Below are positions 2,208 through 44,532 of a DNA stretch of 64,000 bases, piece by piece. Below the pieces are notes generated by a model that had not been told where the DNA came from, ran no database searches, and saw only the letters and a list, made by a program, of their open reading frames with translations. Positions within the stretch are counted from its first letter, which is position 1, and each line of letters begins with the position of its first letter. The position numbers and the translations under genes are program-made. Source of the stretch: Streptomyces sp. NBC_00483 (GTDB lineage: Bacteria; Actinomycetota; Actinomycetes; Streptomycetales; Streptomycetaceae); the NCBI RefSeq assembly GCF_036013745.1, contig NZ_CP107880.1, positions 6,572,001 through 6,636,000 of the forward strand, read 5' to 3'.

Positions 2208-2249
2208 ATGCGCACCCGAATTCTCGTACTTGGAAAGCGCGTCGGCTGA
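2208..2249 (+). CDS. ilvB leader peptide [13 protein letters not shown]
   Basis: A 13-codon frame opens with ATG at 2208, preceded at 8 bases by a strong Shine-Dalgarno run (GGAGGG, 2194-2199), and ends at TGA 2247. It encodes [13 protein letters not shown]. The block Ile-Leu-Val-Leu is written ATT CTC GTA CTT; ATT, GTA and CTT are rare in this GC-rich genome. All three branched-chain end products of the downstream pathway are represented. Leader-peptide attenuation of ilvB is established for actinobacteria. A possible -10 box CATAAT at 2145-2150, inside the end of the previous gene, would put transcription start near 2157. GCGCGTCGG (2237-2245) can pair with CCGGCGCGC (2294-2302), part of the switch structure; the actual antiterminator was not resolved. 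Confidence 0.85.
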
Positions 2250-2303
2250 AGCTGGGACCACCGGTCAGAACACCGGAAACCCGGCGACCGCACCCGGCGC
2301 GCT

Positions 2304-2337
2304 CCCCTCGCTTGCCTCACGGCACGAGGGGTTTTTT
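2304..2337 (+). terminator. intrinsic terminator / attenuator of ilvB
   Basis: CCCCTCG (2304-2310) pairs with CGAGGGG (2325-2331). An inner TGCC/GGCA helix closes a TCAC tetraloop, and six T residues follow (2332-2337). It lies 55 bases after the leader-peptide stop and about 100 bases before ilvB, with no gene in between, so it must be read through for ilvB expression. Uridine-tract terminators are uncommon in this genome, where most stems lack one. This supports a regulated attenuator. Confidence 0.88.
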
Positions 2338-2439: not shown

Positions 2440-4290
2440 ATGACCGAGCAGGCCACCGGGGCCAGCCAGCCGCAGCCGCGGCCCCGTTCCGGAGGACAGC
2501 AGTCCGCCCCCGTCGAGCACGTCACGGGTGCGAAGTCCCTCATTCGCTCGCTTGAGGAGGTCGGGGTCGACACCGTATTCGGTATCCCCGGCGGCACGAT
2601 CCTTCCCGCGTACGACCCGATGATGGACTCGAGCCGGGTGCGCCACGTGCTCGTCCGTCACGAGCAGGGTGCGGGCCACGCGGCCACCGGTTACGCGCAG
2701 GCCACCGGCAAGGTCGGTGTCTGCATGGCCACTTCGGGCCCGGGTGCGACCAACCTGGTGACGCCGATCGCCGATGCGATGATGGACTCGGTGCCGCTCG
2801 TCGCGATCACCGGCCAGGTCGTCTCCAAGGCGATCGGCACGGACGCCTTCCAGGAAGCGGACATCGTCGGCATCACCATGCCGATCACCAAGCACAGCTT
2901 CCTGGTCACCAAGGCCGAGGAGATCCCGCAGGCGATCGCCCAGGCGTTCCACATCGCCTCGACCGGCCGCCCCGGCCCGGTCCTCGTGGACATCCCGAAG
3001 GACCTCCTGCAGGCGCGGACGACGTTCACCTGGCCGCCGCAGCAGGACCTGCCCGGCTACCGCCCGGTGACCAAGCCGCACGCCAAGCAGATCCGCGAGG
3101 CCGCGAAGCTGATCACGAATGCGAAGCGGCCCGTCCTCTACGTCGGTGGCGGCGTCCTCAAGGCGGGTGCCACCGCCGAGCTCAAGATGCTCGCCGAGCT
3201 CACCGGAGCGCCCGTCACCACCACCCTGATGGCGCTCGGCGCATTCCCCGACAGCCACCCGCTGCACGTGGGAATGCCGGGCATGCACGGTGCGGTCACC
3301 GCCGTCACCGCGCTGCAGAAGGCCGACCTGATCGTCGCCCTCGGAGCCCGCTTCGACGACCGCGTCACCGGCAACCTGGACAGCTTCGCCCCGTTCGCGA
3401 AGATCGTCCACGCCGACATCGACCCCGCGGAGATCGGCAAGAACCGCGCCGCCGACGTGCCGATCGTCGGGGACGCCCGCGAGGTCATCGCCGACCTGAT
3501 CCAGGCGGTCCAGAAGGAGCACAGCGACGGTCACGCCGGCGACTACACCGCCTGGTGGAAGGACCTCAACCGCTGGCGCGAGACGTACCCGCTGGGCTAC
3601 GACCAGCCCGCGGACGGCTCGCTCTCCCCGCAGCAGGTCATCGAGCGCATCGGCCAACTCGCCCCCGCGGACACGATCTTCGCGGCGGGCGTGGGCCAGC
3701 ACCAGATGTGGGCCGCGCACTACATCCAGTACGAGAAGCCGGCCACCTGGCTGAACTCGGGCGGCGCCGGGACCATGGGCTACTCGGTGCCCGCCGCGAT
3801 GGGCGCCAAGGCCGGCGCGCCGGGCCAGACGGTCTGGGCGATCGACGGCGACGGCTGCTTCCAGATGACCAATCAGGAGCTGACCACCTGCGCCCTGAAC
3901 AACATCCCGATCAAGGTCGCCATCATCAACAACGGCGCCCTCGGGATGGTCCGCCAGTGGCAGACGCTGTTCTACAACCAGCGCTACTCGAACACCGTGC
4001 TGCACGCGGGCCCGGACGGCGAGACCCCGCCCAACAAGGGCACCCGCATCCCGGACTTCGTGAAGCTGAGCGAGGCCATGGGCTGCTACGCCATCCGCTG
4101 TGAGCGCCCCGAGGACCTCGACAAGTGCATCGAGGAGGCGAACTCGATCAACGACCGCCCGGTCGTGGTCGACTTCATCGTCCACGAGGACGCCATGGTG
4201 TGGCCGATGGTCGCCGCCGGCACCTCCAACGACGAGATCATGGCCGCTCGGGACGTCCGCCCCGACTTCGGCGACAGCGAAGACGACTGA
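2440..4290 (+). CDS. ilvB: acetolactate synthase large (catalytic) subunit
   Basis: A protein of about 616 residues, normal for acetohydroxyacid synthase. It condenses two pyruvates to acetolactate (Val/Leu) or pyruvate with 2-ketobutyrate (Ile) in the cytosol. The thiamine-diphosphate N-terminal domain is clear ([12 protein letters not shown], then [16 protein letters not shown] with the ThDP-activating Glu). The central FAD-type domain follows, then the C-terminal GDG...NN metal/ThDP motif ([16 protein letters not shown] ... [14 protein letters not shown]). Two in-frame ATGs occur at 2434 and 2440; 2440 was chosen because GAGAAGAG (2425-2432) is then 7 bases away rather than touching it. 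The first ~25 residues are a Gln/Pro-rich tail. ilvN follows 23 bases downstream, so the two subunits are co-transcribed behind the attenuator. Confidence 0.97.
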
Positions 4291-40570: not shown

Positions 40571-41170
40571 ATGTCTACGCACAGCTCCAGCCCGCTCCGT
40601 GTCGCCGTCCTGATCGGCTCCACCCGCGAGGGCCGGTTCGCTCCGGTCGTCACGCGCTGGCTCGCCGGACAGCTCGGCCAGCGCGCCGATCTGCGCGCCG
40701 ATGTCGTCGACCTCGCCGAGACCCCCCTGCCGACCGTGCTGCCCGCTTTCGGCCAGGAGCCGCCGCCGGGCGCGAAGGAGGCGCTCGCTCTCGTCACGCC
40801 GCGCCTCGCGGCCGCCGACGCGTTCGTCTTCGTCACGCCCGAGTACAACCACAGCTTCCCCGCGTCCCTGAAGAACGCGATCGACTGGCACAACCAGGAG
40901 TGGCACGGCAAGCCGGTCGCCTTCGTCTCGTACGGCGGCCTGTCCGGCGGTCTCCGCGCGGTCGAGCAACTCCGCGTAGTGATGGCCGAGTTGCACGCCA
41001 CGACCATCCGCAACACGGTCAGCTTCCACAACGCGTGGGGCGCCTTCGACGCGGAGGGGCGCGTCGACGATCCGGCCGTGGACGCCGCCGCGAAGGCGAT
41101 GCTCGACCAGCTGACGTGGTGGGCGCATGCGCTGCGTGACGCCAAGTCCGTTCGTCCGTACGCGGCTTGA
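40571..41170 (+). CDS. NADPH-dependent FMN reductase
   Basis: 199 residues, flavodoxin-like NADPH-dependent FMN reductase (FMN_red). The opening VAVLIGSTREGRFAPVVTRW, FVTPEYNHSFPASLKNAIDW (flavin-binding and the conserved EYN) and VSYGGLSGGLRAVEQLR are diagnostic. It probably supplies reduced flavin or reduces quinones/azo compounds as a detoxifying enzyme. ATG 40571 follows AGGGGGA. The MFS exporter starts 13 bases after its stop, so both form an inducible detoxification unit under the divergent TetR. Confidence 0.93.
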   Translation: MSTHSSSPLRVAVLIGSTREGRFAPVVTRWLAGQLGQRADLRADVVDLAETPLPTVLPAFGQEPPPGAKEALALVTPRLAAADAFVFVTPEYNHSFPASLKNAIDWHNQEWHGKPVAFVSYGGLSGGLRAVEQLRVVMAELHATTIRNTVSFHNAWGAFDAEGRVDDPAVDAAAKAMLDQLTWWAHALRDAKSVRPYAA

Positions 41171-41183
41171 GCGGGCGAGCGTC

Positions 41184-42608
41184 ATGGCCACGAACCTGAC
41201 CACCACGGCCGGTCCGAGTGCCGACACGACCGGCGCGCCCTCCCGGATCGTGATCGCGGGCCTGCTGCTCGGCATCGTGCTCGCCACGCTGGACGGCACG
41301 ATCGTCGGCACGGCCCTGCCCGTCATCGTCGACGACCTCGGTGGCCTGGATCATCTGTCCTGGGTGGTGACCGCCTATCTACTCGCCACGGCCGTCACCA
41401 CCCCGCTCTGGGGCAAGATCGGCGACCTCTACGGCCGCAAGGGCAGCTATCTCACCTCGATCGTCATCTTCCTCGCCGGGTCCGTCCTGTGCGGACTCGC
41501 CCAGGACATGGGGCAGTTGATCGCCTTCCGGGCGGTCCAGGGCATCGGCGCGGGTGGCCTGTTCGTGGGCGCGCTCTCGCTCGTGGGGACACTGCTCGGC
41601 CCAGCGGAGGCGGGCCGCTCGCAGTCCGTCATCGGCGTGCTGCTGCCCGCCGCGATGATCGGCGGGCCGCTGCTCGGCGGCTTCCTCACGGACCAGCTGA
41701 ACTGGCGGTGGGCGTTCTACGTCAATGTGCCCGTCGGGGCCGTCACCCTCGCCATCGTCGGGGCGGGCGTACGGGTGCGTACGGAGCGGGTACGGGCACG
41801 GGTCGACCTCGCGGGCGCCGCGCTGCTCACCGCCGCGATCCTCGCCCTGACGCTGCTGTCGTCCTGGGCCGGGGTGACGTACGCCTGGATGTCGCCGCAG
41901 ATCGCGGCGCTCGCACTGGTCTCGGTCGCGGCCCTCGCAGGGTTCGTCGCGGTGGAGCGGCGAGCGGCCGAGCCGGTGATCCCGCCCCGGCTGTTCCGCG
42001 ACCGCAACTTCGGCGTCGCGCAGGTGCTGACCTTCACCGCGGGGGCGGCGATGATCGCGGCCGCCACCTATCTGCCGCAGTACATGCAGCACGTACGGGG
42101 CATGTCGTCGACGGGCAGCGGGCTGCTGCTGCTTCCCCTGATGCTCGGCATGATGGGCGCCCAACTGGCCATCGGGCGCCGGGTGAGCAACGGCGGCCGC
42201 TACAGGCGCTACCCGATCGCGGGCGGCGCTCTCGCGACGGCGGGCGCCCTGGCCCTGCTCCTGCTGGGCGCCGAAACGGCGACCTGGGCGGCATCCGCCC
42301 TGCCCCTGGCCCTGGGCATCGGCCTCGGGTGCCTGTTTCAGCCCTCCCTGCTGATCACCATGAACAGCGCCGAGCCCCGTGACATCGGCGCGGCCGGCGG
42401 GACACAGACGCTGCTGCGGACCGTCGGAGGCTCGCTCGGCGTGGCGGTGCTCGGGTCCGTGTTCGCCCAACGGGCGCACGGCGGCTCCGACCCGGAGGGG
42501 ATCGTCGCCGGGTTGCACGGGGTGGCGGTCGGGTCGGCAGTGCTGTGCGCGGTGGCTTTCGCGGCGGCGCTCCTTGTCCAGGAAGCGCCGCTCCGCGGGG
42601 CCGCCTGA
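41184..42608 (+). CDS. MFS multidrug exporter, DHA2 (14-TM) family
   Basis: 474 residues, DHA2/EmrB-type. Helix 1 carries IVLATLDGTIVGTALPVI, then WVVTAYLLATAVTTPLWGKI and GKIGDLYGRKGSY (motif A); helix 5 carries GPLLGGFLTDQLNWRWAFYV (motif C). It likely exports a toxic compound sensed by the divergent TetR. ATG 41184 gives a normal N-terminus. The RBS is weak, consistent with coupling to the FMN-reductase stop 13 bases upstream. Confidence 0.93.
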   Translation: MATNLTTTAGPSADTTGAPSRIVIAGLLLGIVLATLDGTIVGTALPVIVDDLGGLDHLSWVVTAYLLATAVTTPLWGKIGDLYGRKGSYLTSIVIFLAGSVLCGLAQDMGQLIAFRAVQGIGAGGLFVGALSLVGTLLGPAEAGRSQSVIGVLLPAAMIGGPLLGGFLTDQLNWRWAFYVNVPVGAVTLAIVGAGVRVRTERVRARVDLAGAALLTAAILALTLLSSWAGVTYAWMSPQIAALALVSVAALAGFVAVERRAAEPVIPPRLFRDRNFGVAQVLTFTAGAAMIAAATYLPQYMQHVRGMSSTGSGLLLLPLMLGMMGAQLAIGRRVSNGGRYRRYPIAGGALATAGALALLLLGAETATWAASALPLALGIGLGCLFQPSLLITMNSAEPRDIGAAGGTQTLLRTVGGSLGVAVLGSVFAQRAHGGSDPEGIVAGLHGVAVGSAVLCAVAFAAALLVQEAPLRGAA

Positions 42609-42622
42609 CCGCATCGTGAGAC

Positions 42623-42651
42623 CACAGCCCGGCCCTCGGCCGGGCTGTGGC
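42623..42651 (+). terminator. hairpin terminator after the MFS exporter
   Basis: A 13-bp perfect stem (CCACAGCCCGGCC, 42623-42635, and its complement 42639-42651) with a CTC loop, 15 bases after the MFS stop. Confidence 0.82.
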
Positions 42652-42662
42652 AGACTGCGGGC

Positions 42663-42713
42663 GTGCTCTCGTTCGCCAGCATTATTGGCAGCAGGCGCGC
42701 CGGTCCGCAGTGA
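42663..42713 (+). CDS. putative cimA leader peptide MLSFASIIGSRRAGPQ
   Basis: A 16-codon frame with a GTG start (42663) and TGA at 42711 encodes MLSFASIIGSRRAGPQ. The adjacent Ile codons ATT ATT (42681-42686) are rare in this genome. They face the first enzyme of the citramalate route to isoleucine. The GTG sits 6 bases after CAGACT (42652-42657), a possible -10 box, so the transcript may be leaderless. No good Shine-Dalgarno is present, which fits that idea. A hairpin (CCACCT/AGGTGG, 42714-42740) and then a T-tract terminator (42769-42793) follow before cimA, the classic layout of ribosome-mediated attenuation. Confidence 0.68.
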   Translation: MLSFASIIGSRRAGPQ

Positions 42714-42768
42714 CCACCTCGTACGACCCGGTACAGGTGGACACCGTCGTCCTCGACCCGCGCGCAGA

Positions 42769-42793
42769 CCTCTCGCACCCGCGAGAGGTTTTT
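42769..42793 (+). terminator. intrinsic terminator / attenuator upstream of cimA
   Basis: CCTCTCGC (42769-42776) pairs with GCGAGAGG (42781-42788) around ACCC, followed by TTTTTCTGTTT. It is 56 bases after the leader stop and 108 bases before cimA, with no other gene between them. It is one of only two clear T-tract terminators noticed in the window, the other being the ilvB attenuator. Confidence 0.85.
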
Positions 42794-42900
42794 CTGTTTC
42801 TGGCCCACCCGTAGCCAGGCGGAGAGCGCGAGGGATCATAGATGGACGGTGGAGCCGGTCATTCCGGTAGACCGAGATCCCCATCAGGAGCCAGATCAGC

Positions 42901-44532
42901 ATGAGCAGCAGCCTCAGTGAACGTCCCAGTGCACAGCCCACTGAACTCGACGATTCCTTCCACGTCTTCGACACCACGCTGCGCGACGGCGCGCAGCGCG
43001 AGGGCATCAACCTCACCGTCGCGGACAAGCTGACCATCGCACGGCACCTGGACGACTTCGGCGTGGGCTTCATCGAGGGCGGCTGGCCCGGTGCCAACCC
43101 CCGCGACACGGAGTTCTTCGCCCGCGCGCAGGAAGAGATCGACTTCAAGCACGCGCAGCTCGTCGCCTTCGGCGCCACCCGCAGGGCGAACGCCAAGGCG
43201 AGCGAGGACCCGCAGGTGCGGGCCCTTCTGGAGTCCGGCGCCCCGGTGGTCTGCCTGGTCGCCAAGTCGCACGACCGGCACGTCGAACTGGCCCTGCGCA
43301 CGACCCTCGAAGAGAACCTGGAGATGGTCCGCGACACGGTCTCGTACCTGGTCGCGCAGGGTCGCAGGGTCTTCGTCGACTGCGAGCACTTCTTCGACGG
43401 TTACCGCGCCAACGCCGAGTACGCGAAGTCCGTCGTCCGGACCGCGCACGAGGCCGGCGCCTCCGTCGTCGTCCTCTGCGACACCAACGGCGGCTTCCTG
43501 CCCGCCCAGGTCCAGGCGGTCGTCTCCACCGTCCTCGCCGACACCGGCGCCCGGCTCGGCATCCACGCCCAGGACGACACGGGCTGCGCCGTCGCCAACA
43601 CCCTCGCCGCGGTGGACGCGGGCGCGACCCACGTCCAGTGCACGGCGAACGGCTACGGCGAGCGCGTCGGCAACTCCAACCTCTTCCCGGTCGTCGCGGC
43701 CCTGGAGCTCAAGTACGGCAAGAAGGTCCTCCCCGAGGGCTCGCTGCGCGAGATGACCCGTATCTCGCACGCCATCGCCGAGGTCGTGAACCTCACCCCG
43801 TCCACGCACCAGCCGTACGTGGGTGTCTCGGCGTTCGCCCACAAGGCGGGCCTGCACGCCTCCGCGATCAAGGTCGACCCGGACCTGTACCAGCACATCG
43901 ACCCGGACCTCGTCGGCAACCACATCCGGATGCTGGTCTCCGACATGGCGGGCCGCGCCTCCATCGAGCTCAAGGGCAAGGAGCTCGGCGTCGACCTCGG
44001 CGGCGACCGTGAGCTGGTCGGCCGGGTCGTCGAGCGGGTCAAGGAGCGCGAACTCCAGGGCTACACGTACGAGGCCGCGGACGCGTCGTTCGAACTCCTC
44101 ATGCGCGCCGAGGTCGAGGGCAAGGAGCGCAAGTACTTCCAGGTCGAGTCCTGGCGCGCGATCGTCGAGGACCGCCCCGACGGCTCCCACGCCAACGAGG
44201 CCACGGTGAAGCTGTGGGCCAAGGGCGAGCGCATCGTCGCCACGGCGGAGGGCAACGGCCCGGTCAACGCCCTCGACCGCGCGCTCCGCGTCGGCCTGGA
44301 GCGGATCTACCCGCAGCTCGCGAAGCTGGAGCTGGTCGACTACAAGGTCCGCATCCTGGAGGGCAAGCACGGCACGTCCTCCACGACCCGCGTCCTCATC
44401 TCGACCTCCGACGGCACCGGCGAGTGGTCCACGGTCGGCGTCGCCGAGAACGTGATCGCGGCGTCGTGGGACGCGCTGGAGGACGCTTACACCTTCGGTT
44501 TGCTGCGCGCGGGCGTGGAACCGGTCGAGTAA
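42901..44532 (+). CDS. cimA: (R)-citramalate synthase
   Basis: 543 residues, LeuA/CimA-type alpha-isopropylmalate synthase superfamily. It condenses acetyl-CoA with pyruvate to citramalate, a threonine-independent route to 2-ketobutyrate and isoleucine. The HMGL-like barrel starts with FHVFDTTLRDGAQREGINLT (metal-binding Asp/Arg), with IHAQDDTGCAVANTLAAVDA and VQCTANGYGERVGNSNL. The C-terminal LeuA dimer/allosteric domain (~410-535) senses Ile. The longer length and the THQPYVGVSAFAHKAGLHAS segment fit CimA rather than LeuA. ATG 42901 is the natural start. Expression is probably attenuated by the upstream leader. Confidence 0.93.
   Translation: MSSSLSERPSAQPTELDDSFHVFDTTLRDGAQREGINLTVADKLTIARHLDDFGVGFIEGGWPGANPRDTEFFARAQEEIDFKHAQLVAFGATRRANAKASEDPQVRALLESGAPVVCLVAKSHDRHVELALRTTLEENLEMVRDTVSYLVAQGRRVFVDCEHFFDGYRANAEYAKSVVRTAHEAGASVVVLCDTNGGFLPAQVQAVVSTVLADTGARLGIHAQDDTGCAVANTLAAVDAGATHVQCTANGYGERVGNSNLFPVVAALELKYGKKVLPEGSLREMTRISHAIAEVVNLTPSTHQPYVGVSAFAHKAGLHASAIKVDPDLYQHIDPDLVGNHIRMLVSDMAGRASIELKGKELGVDLGGDRELVGRVVERVKERELQGYTYEAADASFELLMRAEVEGKERKYFQVESWRAIVEDRPDGSHANEATVKLWAKGERIVATAEGNGPVNALDRALRVGLERIYPQLAKLELVDYKVRILEGKHGTSSTTRVLISTSDGTGEWSTVGVAENVIAASWDALEDAYTFGLLRAGVEPVE

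Follow-up and report, generated by a model that had tools for sequence, protein, structure and literature searches.

The citramalate synthase gene cimA of Streptomyces sp. NBC_00483 is preceded by a short reading frame with paired isoleucine codons, a conserved helix and an intrinsic terminator. Judging from the sequence of this locus and of its relatives, the unit is very probably (about 85%) a ribosome-mediated transcription attenuator that would sense charged tRNA-Ile and control cimA. This conclusion draws on comparison of the frame, its codons, the distances, both helices, the contact between them, and the match between regulatory codon and downstream gene. The window, that is the whole stretch of 64,000 nucleotides that was analyzed, covers positions 6572001-6636000 of a genome that consists of a single contig of 10.2 Mb, and coordinates below are counted from its first letter. 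The compact leader unit lies between an upstream transporter-like ORF (41127-42608), which we take to be of the MFS type, and cimA (42901-44532), with the following features:

42607..42621, + strand: candidate NdgR/LtbR-like operator box GACCGCATCGTGAGA, agreeing with 14/15 positions of KTYCRSMWYSYGRRM (consensus from the part of PMC8222616 consulted)
42651..42656, + strand: -10 box CAGACT, 6 nt 5' of the GTG, read from the sequence and predicting a leaderless transcript
42663..42713, + strand: leader peptide cimL MLSFASIIGSRRAGPQ, with GTG start and TGA stop, defined from the sequence and its relatives
42681..42686, + strand: regulatory codons ATT ATT (Ile-Ile), 14 nt 5' of seg2
42695..42705, + strand: seg2 GCGCGCCGGTC, 5' strand of the switch helix
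42710..42744, + strand: nested hairpin P1, GTGaCCACC.../...GGTGGaCAC, overlapping the cimL stop codon, with double-sided changes in 2/7 pairs
42755..42765, + strand: seg3 GACCCGCGCGC, 3' strand of the switch helix, touching the terminator
42766..42793, + strand: intrinsic terminator AGACCTCTCGC-ACCC-GCGAGAGGT followed by a T-run, its pairs covarying in alignment A3 (see below)
42901..44532, + strand: cimA, citramalate synthase of 543 aa (TIGR00977, 641 bits, cut-off 450)

The cimL frame reads GTG CTC TCG TTC GCC AGC ATT ATT GGC AGC AGG CGC GCC GGT CCG CAG TGA. Its ATT-ATT pair had been pointed out in the original prediction, as had the CAGACT box, a CCACC(T)/AGGTGG hairpin, and a stem with a T-run, all upstream of cimA. 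Each was recovered: 42710-42744 contain the hairpin, and 42766-42793 the CCTCTCGC/GCGAGAGG stem with its T-run, which places the terminator between the cimL frame and cimA. The rarity of ATT claimed for this genome also held, since five coding sequences of the window contain 106 ATC codons and a single ATT; among the Ile codons of the parsed cimA leaders, 137 are ATT and 80 are ATC. The 138-nt leader folds with -64.6 kcal/mol (z -5.59), a stability equaled by 0/200 shuffles, and its minimum-energy fold contains seg2:seg3 and the terminator together, as adjacent hairpins. The CCACCT hairpin is not the switch helix: it is a nested, Streptomyces-type extra that is missing from the compact elements of other families, and the conserved pairing is seg2:seg3, which had been overlooked.

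Several other observations were made around the locus. Between the cimA ribosome-binding site and the terminator, many Streptomyces-type loci share a conserved stretch, GGTGGAGCCGGTCATTCCGGTAGACCGAGATCC (42848-42880), which contains an inverted repeat and is retained even at a leader-less cimA copy (L045). A strong hairpin, CCACAGCCCGGCC...GGCCGGGCTGTGG, at 42622-42650 abuts the -10 box of the leader; it is not seen in most of the relatives compared, and may mark where the upstream transcript ends. A BLAST search of the genome for a second copy of the element returned no convincing match, the best other one having E 0.027. Two leuA genes are also present in the genome (L063 and L064), and both are accompanied by Leu leader frames (MRFGLLLLSCRGEGL and MFRGLLLLGCRGGA).

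The leader region was matched in 57/61 relatives searched. All 37 same-genus genomes, this one among them, have a leader frame 5' of cimA that includes one or more Ile codons, the second Ile position being ATT, ATC or ATG. Thus, the loss of the frame or of its Ile codons in close relatives, which would have spoken against the original prediction, was not seen at the main cimA. In nine of these 37 leaders (L022, L025, L030, L042, L043, L046, L047, L049 and L050), indels shift the frame 3' of the Ile codons, and the seg2 RNA strand is retained although the amino acids differ. A peptide altered past its Ile codons with an RNA strand that is kept fits the need of an attenuator, not that of a functional peptide. 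A pattern that required an ATT/ATC-ATN pair and a terminator and left the distance from the codons to seg2 free matched 46 of the 50 loci first fetched. In all 46 elements, the first Ile codon lies 11-15 nt from seg2, whereas the seg2-seg3 loop varies from 4 to 57 nt; seg2 and seg3 form 9-11 pairs, interrupted by one mismatch at most, the exception being L006, in which the outermost base is changed. The four failures were L031, with a terminator and no Ile frame, L039, which returned in a later search as L110 with a Val-Ile leader, and two second cimA copies without leader, L044 (behind an ilvE-like gene) and L045, in the same-genus genomes G014 and G024. The L045 product is 88% identical to the window protein over 526 residues, and its upstream region is decayed.

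Both helices are maintained by compensatory changes. In alignment A1 (32 sequences), seg2:seg3 shows double-sided changes in 5/9 pairs, with 99.6% of cells paired. Alignment A3 comprises 57 non-Streptomyces elements, 49 of them matches of R1, the covariance model built from A1, and eight of them Ile leaders found without R1; 11 near-duplicates or odd ones were excluded. Here, double-sided changes affect 6/10 pairs of helix 1 (seg2:seg3) and 7/10 pairs of the terminator, amounting to 108 double-sided cells against 25.9 in shuffles, and to 13 pairs against 8.5. Since part of A3 was found by a model that favors the structure, the percentage of pairing is inflated; the count of changed pairs suffers less from this bias. 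The terminator 5' arm, nearly invariant in Streptomyces-type elements, varies and covaries outside Streptomyces, and the Streptomyces-type seg2:seg3 helix carries a C.C mismatch.

Model R1 and a second model, R2, built from A3, were then searched against 394 genomes of the class Actinomycetes. R1 matched 185/394 genomes in 77/137 genera, including 40 same-genus genomes (own included), and the genus was absent from the 20 non-matching genomes listed. The cimA gene (TIGR00977) is present in 310/394 genomes: in 177/185 of those with an R1 match and in 133/209 of those without (Fisher p 4e-16). Of the eight R1-positive genomes that lack cimA, four have weak matches (E 0.001-0.006), and the assembly of G294 is 81% complete; the other three belong to one family, whose examined locus, L138, carries the element upstream of ilvB, the codons being Val-Val. 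All 60 R1 regions fetched outside the genus were re-matched by R1, and cimA follows the element by 3-166 nt in 58 of them, the two others being L138 and L134. The frame is readable in 103/103 parsed cimA elements (start codon GTG in 60, ATG in 43), and in all of them an Ile codon stands shortly before the covarying helix; since this layout underlies R1, R2 and the first pattern, matches found later were selected for it. When 20 cimA upstream regions were chosen for having no R1 match, eight had an Ile leader with two hairpins and 12 did not. These 12 regions, which come from several families, and the two second copies speak against a universal leader on cimA. The leader-less cases include small-genome families in which cimA follows an ilvE-like gene (L161, L170-L172). 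R2 matched 274/394 genomes in 112/137 genera, with two or three matches per genome in many, a tally at E<=0.01 that contains some noise since three matches were judged false, one before a transporter-like ORF (L198) and two at plain terminators (L241 and L242).

The genes behind 53 R2 matches were identified in 38 genomes, which were chosen as R2-positive. A first set of 29 second or only matches comprised 16 ilvB, 11 leuS-like, one ilvA-like and one false; a second set of 24 comprised three cimA, eight ilvB, 11 ilvA-like and two false. In the first set, leuS was assigned from recognizable leucyl-tRNA synthetase sequence, and was confirmed at L215 (TIGR00396, 651 bits, cut-off 548). The best models for the ilvA-like protein of L190 are those of threonine ammonia-lyase, below their cut-offs (282.8 of 378.75 bits). 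The codons follow the genes. The ilvB leaders, which carry V/L/I codons, contain Val in 23/23 cases with a readable frame (one had no frame), leuS leaders contain Leu in 10/10, ilvA-like leaders Ile in 12/12, and other leaders Ile in 5/5. That the regulatory codon tracks the downstream gene is strong comparative evidence for leader-peptide attenuation. Taken together with the Ile codons, the distance and the two covarying helices, this match between codon and gene supports the Ile leader-peptide attenuator of cimA that had been predicted. The window itself holds a second member of this group:

2209..2250, + strand: sister leader peptide IlvL before ilvB (sequence not shown), the same peptide as S. 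lividans IlvL in Table 4 of PMC8079986, a source consulted in part
2226..2336, + strand: ilvB attenuator with the same touching-hairpin layout, second-best R1 match in the window (E 0.002)
2440-4239: ilvB

Some elements stand before other kinds of genes. At L033, and putatively at L035, the element precedes a stand-alone LeuA allosteric domain (PF08502 at L033), and at L032, L034 and L134 small proteins follow it, that of L134 being weakly ACT-like (PF13291, E 0.0014); the downstream proteins of L034 and L031 gave no family match. The small proteins behind these copies of the element or terminator may be Ile-controlled regulators of branched-chain enzymes.

In one Frankia-type family (f20), sampled as R2-positive, the element stands before the ilvA-like gene in all 11 genomes of the second set and in G088, with leaders ending in ...LMAIT* or ...LMIIN*. 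No Ile leader was found at any of the six cimA upstream regions fetched from this family: four (L156, L157, L158 and L160) have another conserved hairpin in common, which comes with neither an Ile leader nor a clear T-run, and nothing was seen at L159 and L167. A pattern made from the f20 leaders retrieved ten named records, nine from Frankia, Pseudofrankia or Parafrankia and one from Pseudomonas, the latter rejected as a chance match. An ilvA-like gene lies downstream in 8/9 Frankia-group records, the ninth locus ending too soon. The ilvA route is the other known entry to isoleucine. With the element on the ilvA-like gene and none at the cimA regions fetched, the Ile attenuator in the Frankia-type family seems, from these sequences, to be placed on that entry.

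From the layout at cimA, we infer the start site, the sensing of Ile-tRNA, the direction of the switch and its steric step as follows. Transcription would start at or next to the GTG, and the leader peptide would be made from a leaderless message. When isoleucine is ample, the ribosome would pass ATT-ATT, reach the stop codon and cover seg2; seg3 would then stay single-stranded, the terminator would fold, and transcription would end 5' of cimA. When Ile-tRNA is short, the ribosome would wait on ATT-ATT, 11-15 nt from seg2, leaving seg2 free to pair with seg3, mostly over 9-12 pairs, with the end of this helix against the foot of the terminator stem. A duplex at that foot would be unable to enter the RNA polymerase exit channel, the last pairs before the T-run would stay open, and read-through would follow. 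Because the switch helix shares no bases with the terminator, it would have to act by the space it takes; the gene logic needs seg2:seg3 to relieve termination, which makes their contact the simplest lever. In a more tentative extension, to which we give somewhat less than an even chance, cimA, ilvA-like, ilvB and leuS genes may share one actinobacterial attenuator design, a steric antitermination by a ribosome-gated touching hairpin, in which a codon change swaps the amino acid sensed and the Ile version sits on the enzyme that opens isoleucine synthesis in the lineage, cimA in most and ilvA-like in Frankia.

The contact is nearly constant. Among the minimum-energy folds of 164 elements, 154 could be parsed; helix 1 directly abuts the terminator (0 nt) in 139 of them, with a gap of 1 nt in 13 others and of 2 nt in the remaining two. 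The ten unparsed folds, the window's own included, have extra outer pairing, and they show a gap of 0-1 nt as well. That the minimum-energy fold holds both hairpins at once counts against the attenuator proposed for cimA, as does the lack of an overlap between antiterminator and terminator, by which the classical form is defined.

The main rival to the steric step is that seg2:seg3 serves mainly as a pause hairpin, holding RNA polymerase in the terminator arm for the ribosome to catch up, and that ribosome-polymerase coupling sets termination. Hairpin 1:2 of the trp leader is such a pause hairpin. The near-invariance of the Streptomyces-type terminator 5' arm fits this proposal, as does the position of that arm, which, given the geometry of such pauses, is the expected RNA 3' end of a hairpin-stabilized pause. 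However, the arm varies and covaries outside Streptomyces, and a pause alone leaves the 11-15 nt between codon and seg2 unexplained. We regard a mainly pausing role as unlikely, and both functions could coexist.

Classical attenuators use strand 3 twice, as a partner in the antiterminator and as the 5' arm of the terminator. An antiterminator of this kind, sharing bases with the terminator and overlooked here, would match the mode of the known E. coli leaders, and short stretches able to pair with the terminator arm do exist (GAGGUU in L036, GAGGU in L034). Yet, in a search for a leader strand complementary to the terminator 5' arm, 0/100 cimA elements scored at p<=0.05 (mean z -0.86 in 34 Streptomyces-type and -0.46 in 66 other elements), against 4/6 E. 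coli leaders (thrL, leuL, ilvL and pheL); the power of this test is limited, since it misses trpL (p 0.14) and hisL (p 0.44). By the same test, seg3 scored in 43/66 compact elements and in only 3/34 Streptomyces-type ones, because the C.C mismatch splits the ungapped helix. No strand shared between antiterminator and terminator was thus found, and we hold the classical arrangement to be improbable. Two further pairings were tried and rejected. An H-type pseudoknot between the switch-helix loop and the terminator arm looked suggestive by eye in L034, L036, L040 and L041, but was not general and did no better than shuffles, and a possible helix between CTCTCG, at the beginning of the frame, and the 3' arm of the terminator is lost, by eye, in relatives such as L017, L030 and L046.

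The upstream signals are also recurrent. In 100/103 cimA leaders, the chosen start codon is preceded at 4-8 nt by an xAxxxT box, a count to which the choice of starts, which favored such boxes, contributes. A leaderless leader peptide had been thought unusual; in the part of PMC8079986 consulted, six of eight S. lividans leader peptides are described as leaderless, and such leaders are common in Streptomyces. An NdgR/LtbR-like box (at least 13/15 positions) occurs within 80 nt upstream at 42/46 loci, mostly at one place, against 218/920 background windows. By eye, a candidate box of this type is also present at about 2143-2156, upstream of the ilvB leader promoter. The sequences suggest two layers of control, an operator and an attenuator, at both the cimA and the ilvB leaders.

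The nearly fixed place of this box would also suit a purely protein-mediated control, in which a regulator binds the hairpins or the operator box and the leader peptide is a by-product. A protein has been proposed to act on the LEU element (PMC1262725), and codon substitutions in the S. coelicolor ilvB leader reportedly had no effect on regulation (Craster 1999, as cited in PMC1262725 and consulted there only), a result that counts against the attenuator because the ilvB leader of the window has the same layout. A by-product would not be expected to switch its codons with the gene, though, and the helix sequences vary while their pairing is kept, making this proposal less probable still than a classical attenuator. 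Least probable of all is a constitutive early terminator or transcript end that does not switch, which would agree with the strong terminator and with both hairpins folding together but leaves the conserved Ile codons, the codon swap and the narrow distances unaccounted for.

The steric attenuator proposed for cimA shares with E. coli thrL, leuL, ilvL, pheL, trpL and hisL the codons for the end product, a ribosome-gated upstream strand and an intrinsic terminator before the first gene. It differs from them in that the antiterminator helix touches the terminator arm without overlap and that the message is probably leaderless. The ilvB leader (IlvL) of Streptomyces, Mycobacterium and Corynebacterium is its closest counterpart in the window, where IlvL has the same layout, with ILV codons rather than Ile alone. 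In a 2005 survey (PMC1262725), ilvB leader peptides and terminators were reported, the mode of regulation was unclear, and attenuator components were often missing. The ilvB-II motif of Corynebacterium, as described in the part of PMC10272879 consulted, likewise has a uORF with BCAA codons and two stem-loops, the second a terminator. It is reported for ilvB, and its proposed antiterminator pairs the P1 loop with the lower terminator stem P2a, overlapping it, whereas no such overlap was found at cimA for the terminator 5' arm. In the Streptomyces leuS attenuators (PMC1262725; LeuL2 in the part of PMC8079986 consulted), a Leu leader is also followed by antiterminator and terminator hairpins, with a different target and different codons. 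The LEU element of leuA (PMC1262725) likewise has a leader peptide, which precedes the gene of a homologous synthase; it is a pseudoknot in whose base stem the run of Leu codons is paired to the ribosome-binding site of leuA, and no terminator is described for it. The cimA leader appears to fall outside this class, as it has a terminator with a T-run and its minimum-energy fold consists of two hairpins. A T-box, riboswitch or other Rfam family was also rejected: no match reached the gathering score in the window, only weak matches below it occurred in the leader stretch, and none at E<=0.5 in 10 loci of relatives.

The 2005 survey (PMC1262725) covers trp, cys, ilvB, leuS, leuA and ileS, and cimA is absent from it; none of the eight leader peptides in the part of PMC8079986 consulted belongs to cimA. 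No description of cimA attenuation was found among the best matches in open-licence literature, where absence is not proof. In the same literature, 'citramalate' and 'leader peptide' occur together in one paper, on an archaeon, and neither 'citramalate' nor 'cimA' appears in the portion consulted of the main text of an S. clavuligerus Term-seq paper.

The isoleucine pathway supplies precursors of many antibiotics. With the attenuator proposed here, the citramalate route to isoleucine would join the attenuated actinobacterial pathways, across many families. The touching hairpin would be the missing attenuator part in the puzzle of ilvB regulation left by the 2005 survey, and the position of the Ile leader, at cimA or at an ilvA-like gene, may reveal by which entry a lineage makes its isoleucine.
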